From Bacteroidota bacterium (GTDB lineage Bacteria; Bacteroidota; Bacteroidia; Palsa-965), in NCBI GenBank assembly GCA_006218065.1, contig VBWE01000015.1, positions 62,001 to 126,000 of the forward strand: a stretch of DNA of 64,000 nucleotides, read 5' to 3'. Below the pieces are notes generated by a model. The model worked only from the letters and a program-made list of their open reading frames with translations, was not told the DNA's origin and did not search any database. A program made the translations under genes and the position numbers. Shown one piece after another: positions 1-14,876 of the stretch (its first letter is position 1; each line of letters starts with the position of its first letter).

Positions 1-83
1 CCGAAGACGACTACGGAAATAAAACCGCGTTCCTCATCAAAGGAAACTGCGAAGATTTTACCGTTACGAAAGTCACGAAGTAG
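1..83 (+). CDS. C-terminal end of an unknown protein (partial)
   Basis: A reading frame open from the window edge codes for about 26 residues, ending CEDFTVTKVTK before a TAG stop. The start and most of the gene lie outside the window, so no function can be given. The last 11 bases overlap the 3' end of the convergent VanW-family gene, a normal arrangement for tightly packed convergent genes. The charged, soluble-looking tail makes coding more likely than a chance open frame, but the evidence is thin. Confidence 0.5.
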   Translation, partial: EDDYGNKTAFLIKGNCEDFTVTKVTK

Positions 84-939
84 CCGGCCCGGTTTGATAA
101 TCCTGTTGCGCTTCCGCCGTACTGCTTAACGTTACAAACGATTGCGGAACGTATTTCATGCGCGCAAAGTTTTTCGTAACCAGTTCCGTTTCCAGCACAG
201 CCCCGCTTTGAAACTTGGCGATTTTCTTCCGCCATATTTCATTCTGCCGGAAGTATTCGCTGCCGATCTGCACAAAGCGATGCTTCATTTCAAAAACATG
301 GTAACTGAAATGCAGTTCCACATTCACACGCAGTTCACCTTCCAGGCATTTGTCGCTGAGCCATAAGCGGAGCTGGAAAGTCCACGGCGTATTGTTCGTG
401 AACTGGTAATCGAGGTAATTGTAAAAAACGGCGGCCCCGCTTCCGAAAGGCAGTATCCGCCCTTCGTCCGGGAAAACATCGTAGCTGTGATGATGGCGTT
501 CGGTTACCGTAAGCGGGCTGTGGATCACGAGCCAGTGCACGAGGTTTGCAATTTGGCATATTCCCCCGCCCGTGCCCGCGCGCGCTTCGCCGAACGAGAT
601 TTCCATGCCCGGCAGGTAGCCTTTCCGCTTTGTCGGTCGCCCGACGAGTTTGCAGAACGAAAATTTTTCCCCGGGCCTGATCAGTATGCCGTCGATCTTC
701 GCGATAGCGAGTGCCAGGTTTTTTACTTTGTTCCGCTGCCATTCCATTTCAACGCCCTGCAGTTTGCGCAGCAGCACGGAACTGTGTTTCTTCACACGGT
801 ACGGCAGTTTTTCGGCGGAGCGTTCGCGGACGAATGATTTCCGGTGAACCTGCCAGCCGATCCAGCGCCGGAATTGTTTTTCGCTTACGGAAAGTGCGTA
901 GAGCAGGGGATGGTGCTGGCTTAAAAGCGTGCGCGGCAT
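73..939 (-). CDS. VanW family protein
   Basis: A 288-residue protein with the VanW domain at about residues 85-235. The diagnostic motifs are RPGEKFSF (88-95) and GTGGGICQ (122-129), followed by a His-rich ERHHHSYDVFP segment. VanW was named from glycopeptide-resistance clusters, but the biochemical role of the family is unknown and most members, including this one, have no resistance genes nearby. There is no signal peptide or membrane segment, so it is probably cytoplasmic. The N-terminal 80 residues are basic and rich in Arg/Lys. It is a stand-alone gene: the convergent neighbour overlaps its end, and a tRNA-like gene on the same strand lies upstream. Family assignment is firm; function is not. 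Confidence 0.88.
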   Translation of the reverse strand: MPRTLLSQHHPLLYALSVSEKQFRRWIGWQVHRKSFVRERSAEKLPYRVKKHSSVLLRKLQGVEMEWQRNKVKNLALAIAKIDGILIRPGEKFSFCKLVGRPTKRKGYLPGMEISFGEARAGTGGGICQIANLVHWLVIHSPLTVTERHHHSYDVFPDEGRILPFGSGAAVFYNYLDYQFTNNTPWTFQLRLWLSDKCLEGELRVNVELHFSYHVFEMKHRFVQIGSEYFRQNEIWRKKIAKFQSGAVLETELVTKNFARMKYVPQSFVTLSSTAEAQQDYQTGPATS

Positions 940-1057: not shown

Positions 1058-1101
1058 GACCCGGACAGCCACCGTTCCTAAAAACGATGCCTGCCCGGGT
1101 C
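1058..1101. repeat. Inverted repeat next to the tRNA-like gene
   Basis: The arms GACCCGGACAG (1058-1068) and CTGCCCGGGTC (1091-1101) pair at 10 of 11 positions, and the loop holds a small CGTT/AACG stem. It lies just past the 3' end of the tRNA-like gene. There is no T tract on either strand, so a classical intrinsic terminator is not supported. It may be a processing or termination hairpin for the tRNA transcript. Confidence 0.4.
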
Positions 1102-1108
1102 AAACGAG

Positions 1109-1195
1109 CGGCGGCGAAGGGATTCGAACCCCTGATACCCTTTCGAGTATGCCTGATCTTCAGTCAGGTGCTTTCAGCCACTCAGCCACACCCGA
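1109..1195 (-). tRNA. Class II (Ser-like) tRNA with GAA anticodon, acceptor stem partly mispaired
   Basis: Read on the minus strand this folds as a class II tRNA. It has T8-G9, a D arm GCTGAGTGGCTGAAAGC typical of serine tRNAs, an anticodon stem CCTGA/TCAGG with loop CTGAAGA, a long variable arm ATACTC-GAAA-GGGTAT, and a T arm AGGGG-TTCGAAT-CCCTT. The loop puts GAA at positions 34-36, a Phe anticodon, yet the long variable arm and D arm are Ser features. In the acceptor stem TCGGGTG against CGCCGCC, four inner pairs form and the three terminal pairs do not (T-C, C-C, G-G). No CCA is encoded. It may be a decayed serine tRNA, a recombined gene or an unusual functional tRNA. The fold is clear; isotype and activity are uncertain. 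Confidence 0.7.
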
Positions 1196-1289: not shown

Positions 1290-2414
1290 TCACTTGCCTT
1301 TCTTCTCCGTCATATCCATACCGCAGATCCTGCATTTGCCCGGCGCGCTGCTTGCCCCGCCTTCACAATCCATCGGGCAAGCGTAAACTGTCGCCTCTCC
1401 TGTTTTCGGAACAATGCTTTTGGAAGTGAAAAAACGATATGATATTCCGAAGGTGAGGCGGTGCTGGGAAGCTACCTGCGTTCCGTAAACGTATTCGTAC
1501 AAAGGCAGTTCGTAGAGGGCAAATACGGCAAATGATTTATGGCTGAAACTGATCTGCGGAGCGAGCGAAATTTTCCTGCTTCCCGTGGATGCCGTGTCTA
1601 CATTATAGAATGCGAGAAGATCCACATTTTCCGCAGCTTTCATTTTGCCTATATGTTCTCCTTTTACCTGCAAAGTCAGCCCGAGTTTTTCGAAAAGCGT
1701 TGTTCCTGCAAATAAACCCACGCTGGCATAGTCGCCGAATTTTTCTCCCAGCGAGTTCCAGCCTTTCCGTATGTAAAGCGAGTTTGCAAACAACCTGAAG
1801 TTACGTTTCGGAAATCCCCGGTAAAGGAAGGCGTAAAAAATCATATCGTGCGAACCGGTTGTAGGCTGAACCAATGGCGGTGACGTGGTGAAAAACTGTT
1901 GTCCCGCAGGGTTGGTATAAACAAGCGTGGAGTCGTTGTGTTTGCCCAGCGGGATTTTATATCCTAATCCGAGCGTAAGTTCCAGCCGTTTCGTTTCAGA
2001 AGTGCGGTTGATAATATCGTACCTCGGAAAAATAATCAGGTCGGCAATACCGGACGATTCTGTTTTTTCGGATTTGTTCAATACCGAATCAAATAATCCT
2101 GTCTGGGTTTTGTGGAGGAAATATCCCGCTTCAACAGATACCGTTAAATCTTTCGTAACGCCGTAAGCCAATTTGGTGTAAATATATTTGCTGCTGAAAT
2201 TGTCGAAAAGTTTCGCCGTATCCCGGTCTTCCGTTTTGAATTTTTCGCTGGTGAAGTATTCAAAGTTGGTGGCGACTTCCATTTGCCTGTCCAACAATAC
2301 GCCCTGTGATACGCCTCCCGCGATAGGACTTCCGCTTCCGCCTGAACAACATCCCTGCCCGTAAGTATCGTGGGATAAAACCAGGCCGATTATAGAAAAA
2401 ACAAGCAGGCGCAT
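1290..2414 (-). CDS. Outer-membrane beta-barrel protein with terminal metal-binding motifs
   Basis: A 374-residue secreted protein. Residues 1-19 form a signal peptide ending near DTYGQ, followed at once by the Cys/Gly-rich GCCSGGSGSPIAGG. The middle (about 40-330) alternates short amphipathic strands and turns, as in Bacteroidota outer-membrane barrels. The C-terminal 30 residues carry a heavy-metal-binding motif, YACPMDCEGG then CRICGMDM, with four Cys and two Met. This motif occurs in copper/heavy-metal efflux proteins. The combination suggests sensing or passage of a soft metal such as copper at the outer membrane. That is inference; no metal pump gene lies next to it. The secreted thioredoxin-like gene 70 bp upstream on the same strand may share a transcript. 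Confidence 0.75.
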   Translation of the reverse strand: MRLLVFSIIGLVLSHDTYGQGCCSGGSGSPIAGGVSQGVLLDRQMEVATNFEYFTSEKFKTEDRDTAKLFDNFSSKYIYTKLAYGVTKDLTVSVEAGYFLHKTQTGLFDSVLNKSEKTESSGIADLIIFPRYDIINRTSETKRLELTLGLGYKIPLGKHNDSTLVYTNPAGQQFFTTSPPLVQPTTGSHDMIFYAFLYRGFPKRNFRLFANSLYIRKGWNSLGEKFGDYASVGLFAGTTLFEKLGLTLQVKGEHIGKMKAAENVDLLAFYNVDTASTGSRKISLAPQISFSHKSFAVFALYELPLYEYVYGTQVASQHRLTFGISYRFFTSKSIVPKTGEATVYACPMDCEGGASSAPGKCRICGMDMTEKKGK

Positions 2415-11211: not shown

Positions 11212-12216
11212 ATGAGGTTCGGAAAGCACGCATTTGTCACAGCCGGTATTTTTTGCATAACACTGCACGGGCTTGCCCAGCAACCCGCAACGCCCACCTG
11301 GGGAACCCTGAGAATGCCCGGAGCATCGGATTCAACGGCAGCATACATCGTAAGCACCTGGCAGATTTATTCTGAAGGACTGGATACCATGCCGCAGATG
11401 AATTACTGGCGCAGGGTAATTACGCTTTCTCCCGACAGCGGCCTGATCAGCGTGGGTAGTACGCGGCAGATGGTATGCACGGTTAACTGCGATTCGTGGA
11501 ACAGGCAAAGCGATGAAATCAAAGAAGTGTACCGTGACAGTGTCCGGAAAACCCTTGCCCTGCCTGACTCGGAGCGTGTGCTGTTTACCACGGGCAAAGG
11601 TGATTTCTACAACATTCCGTCCACGCTTCCTGATATCAGCAAGGCTGTTCCGATCTTCGAAAAAGAAAACGTGGACCCGTTTTATGCACAAGCTATCCTG
11701 CTGATCGAAAGTCCCGGCAAAATCCGGAAATCGAACGTGGGCGCTTACGGTTCTTTCCAGCTTATGCGCGGGGTGGCTATCAAGATGGGCCTGAAAGTGA
11801 ATAAGTATGTCGATGAGCGCAAGGACTTTGAAAAATCCGCCTGGGCTGCGGCCAAACTCATCCGGACCGTGTGCATCCCGCATGCCAACGCCATGCTTGA
11901 AAAACGCGGAATAGCCTATAAGCAAACCGATTTATGGTACCGCCTGCTGGTATTGCATATTTACCATGCCGGCGCCGGTAACGTGGAAAAAGCGCTGCAG
12001 GCATTCGAACCCTGCGAAGGCGATATCGCCATCATCAAACAACTCTGGAAAACCAAAGCCGGGGCTTTCGGCAATGCTTCCCAGAATTATTCACAGGTGG
12101 CTCTGGCTTCCCTGCTCGAAATGGATGAATACCTGAAAATCCGCGGAGCCTCGGAAGAAACTCCACCGAACCCGGGAGAAAACACCCCTGAAACGCCCGA
12201 AAAGTCTGATAAATAA
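11212..12216 (+). CDS. Secreted lytic transglycosylase-like protein (SLT fold)
   Basis: A 334-residue protein with a signal peptide (about 1-22, ending LHGLAQ). The SLT/lysozyme-like domain covers about 150-300. It shows the catalytic-type Glu in AILLIESPG (Glu166), the GAYGSFQLM motif and HIYHAGAGNV, matching the ES, GxxQ and AYNAG signatures of family 23 transglycosylases. These enzymes cleave peptidoglycan to anhydro-muropeptides during wall remodelling. The region 25-145 has no recognised domain. The C-terminus is Pro/Glu-rich (TPPNPGENTPETPEKSDK), a likely flexible tail. It is monocistronic, with a close TATCTTTA box upstream. The domain is well supported; the exact substrate role is inferred. 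Confidence 0.87.
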   Translation: MRFGKHAFVTAGIFCITLHGLAQQPATPTWGTLRMPGASDSTAAYIVSTWQIYSEGLDTMPQMNYWRRVITLSPDSGLISVGSTRQMVCTVNCDSWNRQSDEIKEVYRDSVRKTLALPDSERVLFTTGKGDFYNIPSTLPDISKAVPIFEKENVDPFYAQAILLIESPGKIRKSNVGAYGSFQLMRGVAIKMGLKVNKYVDERKDFEKSAWAAAKLIRTVCIPHANAMLEKRGIAYKQTDLWYRLLVLHIYHAGAGNVEKALQAFEPCEGDIAIIKQLWKTKAGAFGNASQNYSQVALASLLEMDEYLKIRGASEETPPNPGENTPETPEKSDK

Positions 12217-12368
12217 GACTTTACCGAAAGATCCGGCCATCTTTCCTGTTCATAAGTTGTCAAGCGCAACGTGTTGATTAGGTTGTTTTTGTGTTATTAT
12301 TTGCTTAATTTTCCGCGTTAATCCTCTGTATTCTCCCGGGAGGATTTGGTAACACACAAATTCACATC

Positions 12369-14876
12369 ATGGACAGAAAATTACTTCTGTTTGCTTTGTC
12401 GGCCTGTTTTATGCTGACCGAAGCATCCGCGCAGCTCAAAATTAATGAGTACTCCTGCGCAAACGTTTCCACCTTTACCGATAACAACGGGAGTTATGAG
12501 GATTGGGTTGAAATCTACAATCCCGGTTCTTCTGCCGTTGCGCTTGCCGGTTATTACATGAGCGATGATGCGGGCGATCCGCAGAAGTGGCAGTTTCCCG
12601 CTACCGCGCCTTCTGTAGCTGCAGGCGGTGTTGTGCGCGTAATGTGCTCGGGCCTGGATATGATTTTCGGTGTCTGGGTACATACCAGTTTCAAACTCAC
12701 GCAGTGCAAGCCCGACCAGATTATCCTCAGTGATGCCGGCGGATCGATGATCGATTCGGCTGGTTTGCGCAGGAACCAGGATAACCATTCGTGGGGACGC
12801 AACCCGGACGGAAGCAATACCTGGTCTGTTTATACCACACCTACGCCGAACGCGCTCAACAGCACTGGTTCTCCAAAGCAGACTTATGCCACAACGCCGC
12901 AGTTCAGTATAAGTCCCGGTTTTTATCCCGGTGCGCAAACACTCACGATCAGTTCGCCCGATCCCGGCGTTACGATTTATTACACTACGAACGGAAGCGA
13001 ACCGACCAGTTCATCTACCGTTTATTCGGCGCCGGTCAACATCGCTGCAACGATGGTCGTGCGTGCAAAAGCATACAGTTCAAATCCCGCTATCGTACCC
13101 AGTTTTATTGAAAGCAATACGTACTTCATCGGCGTAACACATACGGTAGGTGTAATTTCTGTTTATGGTGACCAGACGGATGACCTGATCGAACTCGGCG
13201 GATGGTCGACGACGGATCCGCGTTCGGGAATCGAATACTTTGATAAAACAGGAGCATTCAAAACAGAATCGACCGGCACGACGAACAAGCACGGAAACGA
13301 TTCCTGGGCTTACGATCAGCGCGGTTTTGATTTTGTATGCCACGACCAGTACGGCTACAACGATGTGCTGAAACAGAAATTTTTCCGCACAAAACCCCGT
13401 CAGAAATTTCAGCGCCTGATTTTCAAAGCGGCAGCCAACGACAATTATCCGTTCTGTTTCGGCGCACCGGCGCATATCCGAGATTCATATGTGCACCATC
13501 TTTCGCAGTACGGCGATCTTCACCTGGATGAACGTTCCTGGGAATCCGCCGTGGTTTACCTGAACGGCCGTTACTGGGGCGTTTACGATATCCGCGAAAA
13601 AGTGGACGATGCCGATTATACAGATTACTACTACAACCAGCCCGACAAAAACAACTGGCTCCAGTTCATCAAAACCTGGGGCGGAACATGGAGCGAATAC
13701 GGCGGAGCACAAGCCCAGGCCGATTGGTCCAGCCTGCTCACGTATATCCAGTCGAACAACATGGCTGTGCAGGCCAACTACGATTACGTGGACAGTTTGC
13801 TGAACGTGAAAAGTCTCGCAGATTATTTCATCCTGAATTCCTGGGCGGTAACAACAGACTGGCTGAACTGGAATACCGGCTGGTGGCGCGGGAAAAACCC
13901 GGCATCGAACGACGGAAAAAAATGGCGTTATATTCTTTGGGACAACGATGCGTGTTTCGGGCATTATGTGAACTATACCGGTGTTCCGGATACATCACCG
14001 AATGCCGATCCGTGCAACGCCGAACAATTGCCTGATCCCGGCGGACAAGGCCATACGACTATCATGACTGCACTGCTGGACAACCCGGGTTTCAAACAGT
14101 ACTATATCAACCGGTATGCGGACCTGATGAATTCCACGTTCAAATGCGATACTGCGCTTGCCGTGCTCAACATGATGATCAACGAAATTGATCCGGAAAT
14201 GCAGGGACAATGCACCAAATGGAACGGAAGCTACGCCACCTGGCAGTCTAACGTGAATACACTTCGCAATTTCATCACGCAGCGTTGCGTGGCGCTGGAG
14301 CAGGGCATGATCGATTGTTACGGTCTTACCGGTCCTTATGATATTACGATTGATGTAGCTCCCGCCGGTGCAGGTACTGTTGATCTGAATTCGCTCACGC
14401 TGGATAATTATCCCTGGAGCGGAACGTATTACGGCGGCATCGATATTGTGCTCAAAGCCACACCGACATCAACTTCGTGGACTTTTGATTACTGGGAAAT
14501 GGCTAATACGCCGAATCCTTCTGCGAACGACGATAGCATTACCGTTAGTCTCACGCAGAACGATAATATCATTGCGCACTTCAAATCGAACGATGTGCTG
14601 CAGGATGTATTTATCGCAACCGGCTTTTCTCCCAACGGCGACGGTATCAACGATAACCTCGTGATGCATGGTTTCGGCGGCGCGCAGTCCATGGAATTCG
14701 TGGTTTACAACCGCTGGGGACAGCGCGTGTACGAAACTACGGATGCTTCGTTCAGTTGGGACGGAACCATGAACGGCGAAAAACTCGAAGCCGGTGTTTA
14801 CGCATATAAACTGACCGCAGTTGCCGGCGACGGTATCGAGTCGATCAAGACCGGGAACATAACCATCATGCGTTAA
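12369..14876 (+). CDS. Multidomain secreted protein: lamin-tail, CotH kinase, T9SS type B C-terminus
   Basis: An 835-residue T9SS cargo with signal peptide MDRKLLLFALSACFMLTEASA. In order it has a lamin-tail domain (about 23-145, KINEYSCAN and DWVEIYNPG), a chitobiase C-terminal-like beta domain (about 180-250, YYTTNGSEPT), a CotH kinase-like domain (about 290-640, LNGRYWGVYDIREKVD and RYILWDNDACFG), an InlB-type beta repeat (about 655-745) and a type B sorting domain (750-835, GFSPNGDGINDN, VYNRWGQRVYE, LEAGVYAYKL). CotH proteins include atypical protein kinases of spore coats; a surface version may phosphorylate or bind extracellular partners, which is inference. A PorP/SprF gene follows after 19 bp, probably its dedicated export or anchoring partner. 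Confidence 0.92.
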   Translation: MDRKLLLFALSACFMLTEASAQLKINEYSCANVSTFTDNNGSYEDWVEIYNPGSSAVALAGYYMSDDAGDPQKWQFPATAPSVAAGGVVRVMCSGLDMIFGVWVHTSFKLTQCKPDQIILSDAGGSMIDSAGLRRNQDNHSWGRNPDGSNTWSVYTTPTPNALNSTGSPKQTYATTPQFSISPGFYPGAQTLTISSPDPGVTIYYTTNGSEPTSSSTVYSAPVNIAATMVVRAKAYSSNPAIVPSFIESNTYFIGVTHTVGVISVYGDQTDDLIELGGWSTTDPRSGIEYFDKTGAFKTESTGTTNKHGNDSWAYDQRGFDFVCHDQYGYNDVLKQKFFRTKPRQKFQRLIFKAAANDNYPFCFGAPAHIRDSYVHHLSQYGDLHLDERSWESAVVYLNGRYWGVYDIREKVDDADYTDYYYNQPDKNNWLQFIKTWGGTWSEYGGAQAQADWSSLLTYIQSNNMAVQANYDYVDSLLNVKSLADYFILNSWAVTTDWLNWNTGWWRGKNPASNDGKKWRYILWDNDACFGHYVNYTGVPDTSPNADPCNAEQLPDPGGQGHTTIMTALLDNPGFKQYYINRYADLMNSTFKCDTALAVLNMMINEIDPEMQGQCTKWNGSYATWQSNVNTLRNFITQRCVALEQGMIDCYGLTGPYDITIDVAPAGAGTVDLNSLTLDNYPWSGTYYGGIDIVLKATPTSTSWTFDYWEMANTPNPSANDDSITVSLTQNDNIIAHFKSNDVLQDVFIATGFSPNGDGINDNLVMHGFGGAQSMEFVVYNRWGQRVYETTDASFSWDGTMNGEKLEAGVYAYKLTAVAGDGIESIKTGNITIMR

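Follow-up and report, generated by a model that had tools for sequence, protein, structure and literature searches.

Identity of the gene

Can a tRNA gene whose body belongs to one amino acid and whose anticodon belongs to another still serve translation, or is it the remnant of a gene that is no longer needed? The question is raised by a locus near the start of the window (the whole 64,000-nucleotide stretch of DNA analysed in the present work), where the minus strand at 1193-1109 reads as a class II tRNA gene with a serine body, a GAA anticodon and a damaged acceptor stem. The explanation favoured here, with a probability of about 0.7, is that of a surplus tRNA-Ser gene which has recently been inactivated, was perhaps acquired, and does little or nothing.

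Read from G1 to G73 (1109..1193, minus strand), the gene opens with the 5' acceptor strand GGGTG (1189..1193), which is two bases short and is followed by TG. The D arm, GCT-GAGTGGCTGAA-AGC (1170..1186), is of the serine type and agrees with the consensus of the serine alignment. After a single A comes the anticodon arm CCTGA-CTGAAGA-TCAGG (1152..1168); in its loop, CTGAAGA (1163-1157), positions 34-36 are GAA (1159..1161, the anticodon also called by ARAGORN) and position 37 is G (1158), the loop of the genome's own tRNA-Phe being CTGAAAA. Beyond one C lies a long variable arm, ATACTC-GAAA-GGGTAT (1135..1150, 6 bp), nearly identical to that of the tRNA-Ser(CGA) of Rhizobium WL3. A further C leads to the T arm AGGGG-TTCGAAT-CCCTT (1117..1133), in which one pair is G-U, and the gene closes with the 3' acceptor strand CGCCGCC and the serine-type discriminator G73 (1109..1116). 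No CCA is encoded (CTC comes next), and it is also missing from many other tRNAs of the genome. With the G-U pair counted, all 19 pairs of these four arms are formed (D stem 3/3, anticodon stem 5/5, variable stem 6/6, T stem 5/5).

The isotype of the body was assessed with three covariance models built here, for serine (from 13 genes), leucine (from 8) and tyrosine (from 8). The window gene is not among the 13 serine genes, four of which are this genome's own. It scores 80.7 bits with the serine model, which matches over its full length at 1193-1108, as against 49.2 bits with the tyrosine and 33.1 bits with the leucine model, scores too low for a body of either of those types. The four ordinary tRNA-Ser genes of the genome reach 85.8-99 bits with the serine model, a comparison that favours them as members of its training set. 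Since each model was built from few genes and gives only approximate E-values, weight is placed on the margin by which the serine score exceeds the next best, about 31 bits. The full-length match places the gene far beyond chance as a tRNA, and the margin identifies its body as serine type. The general Rfam tRNA model gives 42.5 bits (E 1.2e-5).

ARAGORN names the gene tRNA-Phe(gaa), at 1108-1187, with a shortened acceptor stem and with the 5' acceptor strand left out. An ordinary tRNA-Phe was rejected on two grounds: the variable stem has 6 bp, whereas the genome's own tRNA-Phe has a class I body, and GAA is followed by G, not A, at position 37. Among the features of a tRNA-Ser, the long variable arm and the serine-type D arm are present, as are G1-C72, G2-C71 and G73 if a two-base gap is accepted; those that fail are the complete 7-bp acceptor stem (the 5' strand has five bases, with two positions empty) and the serine anticodon, which is replaced by GAA. 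The gene is a hybrid, its body and anticodon belonging to different isotypes.

The acceptor stem

The initial annotation had given the same sequence, strand and coordinates, with a serine-type body and GAA in the anticodon loop, and in all of this it is borne out. It had also described a damaged acceptor stem in which the three terminal pairs are mismatched. If base 1 is placed at 1195, pairs 1-72, 2-71 and 3-70 are T.C, C.C and G.G. The register preferred by the serine model instead sets G1 and G2 at 1193-1192, leaves positions 3-4 empty and continues with GTG, opposite a complete CGCCGCC and G73, while TC at 1195-1194 becomes leader. One two-nucleotide deletion thereby replaces the three mismatches. 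G1, G2, C71, C72 and G73 do not vary among the genes of the serine training alignment. Judged from this one sequence, the loss of two nucleotides from an earlier GGCGGTG, giving GGGTG, probably describes the stem better than three adjacent substitutions would, and a sequencing error would look alike. Thus the stem is indeed damaged, yet the three mismatched pairs are better read as a single deletion.

Genomic context and expression signals

Gene content and the type of promoter suggest that the genome is that of a member of the Bacteroidota. It (5.26 Mb in 81 contigs, with 57 tRNA matches) contains an ordinary class I tRNA-Phe(GAA) as well as tRNA-Ser genes for CGA, GCT, GGA and TGA. Comparison with these serine and phenylalanine tRNAs, as advised in the initial annotation, therefore shows the ordinary set to be full and the window gene to be surplus. 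The combination of a structural defect with ordinary isoacceptors elsewhere in the genome is that of a pseudogene.

The downstream neighbour, on the minus strand, codes for a VanW-domain protein (73..939; Pfam PF04294, E 6.9e-40), and the upstream neighbour, on the same strand as the tRNA, codes for a 374-aa protein with a heavy-metal-binding motif (1290..2414, minus strand; Pfam PF19335). Between the tRNA and vanW the fold shows a long, nearly perfect hairpin of 44 nt (1058..1101, minus strand) with no T run after it, of which no second copy was found in the genome. The ORF lists, read by eye rather than by profile search, hold no integrase from ~15 kb upstream to ~10 kb downstream of the gene, and a reading by eye of the neighbouring ORFs brought up no dedicated synthetase. 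An integration scar (att site) was rejected, since no integrase was seen nearby by eye and no second partial copy occurs in the genome; recombination, which had been offered as one cause of the damage, is to this extent unsupported.

Promoters were sought in the 80 bases upstream of each tRNA with the Bacteroidota consensus TTG-N17-22-TAnnTTTG, scored out of 9. The four ordinary Ser genes score 9, 8, 9 and 9, with TTG-N17-20-TAnnTTTG within 31 nt upstream. The best site of the window gene within 80 nt scores 6, and shuffles of its own sequence have a mean of 6.4 and a highest score of 8. Several ordinary tRNAs with leaders or in arrays also score low, and a low score alone is no proof of silence. 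A terminator scan found no terminator-like site flanking the gene.

Origin and rarity

No close match to the window gene exists in the 11 other genomes of the family; the order-level search covered the same 12 genomes, and the genus is represented by this one genome. The vanW gene was not found in the family relatives either. The upstream neighbour has a 63% identical counterpart in one relative (G003), and the locus fetched from that genome is without the tRNA. In a phylum sample of 395 genomes a looser pattern matched 11 genomes, where the matches besides the window gene are stretches unlike tRNA (judged by eye, unfolded).

Identity to the genome's own Ser genes is 61-73%; with Ser genes on plasmids of Rhizobium and Pseudomonas, which belong to other phyla, it is 75-76%, and this difference disfavours a recent resident copy. 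The only other close match that a search of the genome gave is tRNA-Ser(CGA), at 74%, and a recent duplicate of an own Ser gene was rejected at a best identity of 73%. BLAST matches over shorter stretches reach up to 83% identity with plasmids of Rhizobium, and a 52-base match to a tRNA-Tyr of Escherichia phage PJNS034 is 86.5% identical. As tRNA sequences are short, such identities hint only weakly at acquisition from a plasmid or phage.

How rare such genes are was gauged with a narrow pattern, a serine-type D arm and after it the loop CTGAANA, which was searched in 84,980 species of bacteria and archaea and yields a lower bound. It matched 41 stretches, most of them not tRNAs. Four are clear cases, those of Marinifilum sp. 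D737, Bifidobacterium asteroides, a Holophagales bacterium and a Candidatus Falkowbacteria bacterium; each combines a serine-type body with a GAA loop of 7 nt and a complete acceptor stem, and the serine model gives them 76.5-80.1 bits. In the genes from Marinifilum and Bifidobacterium, one anticodon-stem pair is mismatched. A copy in Frigoribacterium, at 40.1 bits with the same model, is damaged, and two Tenacibaculum species have a GAA unit that is matched to about the same degree by the serine and the tyrosine model. A Methyloceanibacter match (L066) was set aside: with its anticodon loop one base short, it resembles a tRNA-Ser(UGA) that has suffered a deletion. A scan of viral contigs gave one match, without a tRNA. 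The four clear cases are unrelated to each other, as expected of sporadic genes that do not persist. The scan suggests that serine-bodied GAA tRNAs are rare, which would be expected if working ones were harmful and removed by selection.

In the Candidatus Falkowbacteria contig (L087:5618-5706) every stem of the serine-bodied GAA tRNA is paired (80.1 bits), and this gene may be a better candidate than the window gene for a working Ser-tRNA(GAA).

Probable inactivation and its alternatives

That the gene is dead or dying is argued from the two-base acceptor deficit, the lack of a consensus promoter and terminator, the full ordinary set of Ser and Phe tRNAs and the absence of a match in the family. 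Decay was among the explanations in the initial annotation, and the first two of these observations back it. The course of events may have begun with a surplus tRNA-Ser gene, probably no recent resident copy and perhaps acquired; acquisition rather than duplication would then be its origin. Its anticodon may have drifted to GAA and the acceptor stem then lost two bases, or the order may have been the reverse. RNase P, SerRS and EF-Tu would be expected to handle such an acceptor stem poorly, leaving little or no charged product, and inactivation would cost nothing if a working Ser-tRNA(GAA) were harmful. Two observations weigh against a dead gene. The 19 remaining pairs are all intact, which implies that decay is recent or that the body is still under selection, and cotranscription with the upstream gene is possible, the tRNA being reached by read-through from the gene of the 374-aa protein. 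As a dead gene, the locus illustrates that body and anticodon can part when a tRNA has become dispensable, and it is a caution for annotation by anticodon only, which names it tRNA-Phe.

Several other accounts of the same features can be weighed against inactivation. The two-base deletion could be an error of sequencing or assembly, the serine tRNA and its GAA anticodon then being intact: the deletion lies within a G/C-rich strand and is the sole structural defect, and there is a precedent in the Arg-GCG tRNA of Pyrococcus furiosus, where a base missing from the acceptor stem was put down to mutation or to a reference error (PMC9897764). Yet the promoter and terminator are missing as well, G37 is unusual in a tRNA for Phe codons and the gene lies well inside a 194-kb contig, so that an error is unlikely. 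An artefact here would mean that the gene is intact, and mistranslation would have to be considered anew. SerRS ignores the anticodon, and a working gene, charged through its long variable arm, would place serine at UUU and UUC, perhaps under stress only; it would be a natural bacterial tRNA capable of a drastic substitution, serine at phenylalanine codons. The pristine body and variable arm speak for such activity, as do the human tRNA-Ser(AAA) variant, which places Ser at Phe codons (PMC8599886), and the tRNA-ProX genes of Streptomyces, which are natural hybrids (PMC11415595). This active role, considered in the initial annotation, is nevertheless improbable in view of the short and damaged acceptor strand, the want of a consensus promoter and terminator, the lack of any conservation in the family and the G at position 37, where the genome's own tRNA-Phe has A37. 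Moreover, serine-bodied GAA tRNAs are scattered singletons across the 84,980 species, as if selected out. A restrained version, in which a low level of serine-charged tRNA reads Phe codons and the short acceptor stem keeps Phe-to-Ser mistranslation tolerable and controlled, would be more improbable still.

A role outside translation has also to be weighed, with the gene giving rise to a tRNA-like RNA such as a structured leader of vanW or an amino-acid donor for a cell-envelope enzyme. The tRNA and the strong hairpin immediately precede vanW on its own strand, and the region folds far better than shuffled sequences (z -5.5), yet most of this value comes from the hairpin (z is -1.0 for the tRNA by itself), the arrangement is absent from every relative examined, and a link between VanW and tRNA has no known mechanism; the chances of such a role appear very slim. 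In Acanthamoeba mitochondria, the first acceptor-stem positions (1-3) of tRNAs are restored by 5' editing. A Thg1-like enzyme could likewise rebuild the first acceptor bases on the 3' strand here, and with base 1 at 1195 it is exactly positions 1-3 that are mismatched. The genome has no member of the Thg1 family (best score 12.6 bits, against a cut-off of 29.2, in a search whose control found one), and a two-base deletion is a simpler account of the pattern; the probability of editing is close to nil.

Other unusual tRNA loci

The same genome contains further tRNA loci of unusual structure. At L003, L005, L006, L007, L019, L020, L026 and L027, one or two truncated self-copies of a tRNA lie 60-300 nt upstream of it on the same strand, and at least eight tRNA genes are so accompanied (Val, Met, Lys, Gly-GCC, Asn, Thr-CGT, Ala-GGC and Arg-CCG). 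Most of these copies are interrupted by REP-like palindromes, often directly after TAGCTCA. When 75 tRNAs of other genomes were examined over 200 rather than 300 nt with comparable, somewhat stricter criteria, no upstream self-copies were found. Elsewhere in the genome, 15 tRNA genes, several of unusual form, make up an array (L143:8321-10648) that is adjoined at 11225-12625 by the RtcB RNA ligase gene rtcB. Three further tRNA-like units of this array carry the palindrome TCCCGATAGCTATCGGGA in the T loop; the palindrome occurs in 26 exact copies in the genome, six of them within or near tRNA genes. The array beside rtcB is comparable to the stress-induced tRNA operon of Anabaena, which is controlled together with rtcB by TrcR (PMC10272220).

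In the two Tenacibaculum species (L071, about 1750-2030, minus strand; L075, 3880-4190, plus strand), tRNA pieces are chained in such a way that the 3' acceptor half of one piece pairs across a short linker with the 5' half of the next, as in TCCTGA-GAAA-TCAGGA and CACAGCC-ACCAAAACTA-GGCTGTG. In one unit of the chain a GAA anticodon is set in a class II body, and the chain adjoins a slipin-like gene and a tRNA array. It may represent a series of circularly permuted tRNA genes. The palindrome-broken tRNA copies and the Tenacibaculum chain may outweigh the window gene in interest.

Comparison with known hybrid and defective tRNAs

Natural hybrids are known in bacteria, and in Streptomyces and Kitasatospora the hybrid tRNA-ProX is a conserved family accompanied by a synthetase of its own, ProRSx (PMC11415595). 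The window gene resembles it as a naturally hybrid bacterial tRNA with a potential for mistranslation, but tRNA-ProX is conserved and paired with ProRSx, whereas the window gene is a singleton without a partner. It lacks the marks of a maintained system, namely an intact acceptor stem, conservation (among 11 family genomes) and a dedicated partner synthetase (by eye, among the neighbouring ORFs). The human tRNA-Ser(AAA), a G35A variant of tRNA-Ser-AGA-2-3 that puts serine at phenylalanine codons (PMC8599886), likewise joins a serine body to a phenylalanine anticodon; its acceptor stem is intact and its misincorporation demonstrated, whereas the window gene carries a deletion.

Non-canonical tRNA genes and fragments of prokaryotes are mostly fragments left by integration or CRISPR activity (PMC9897764). 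As in those cases, an extra defective gene stands here beside a complete ordinary set, yet the window gene is almost complete in length, and its surroundings, read by eye, showed no integrase. Disagreement between body and anticodon is itself a recognised class, flagged by tRNAscan-SE 2.0, many members of which its authors regard as decaying (PMC8450103). With the body of one isotype and the anticodon of another, the window gene resembles this often decaying and low-scoring "hybrid" class, its isotype conflict being shown with the models built here.
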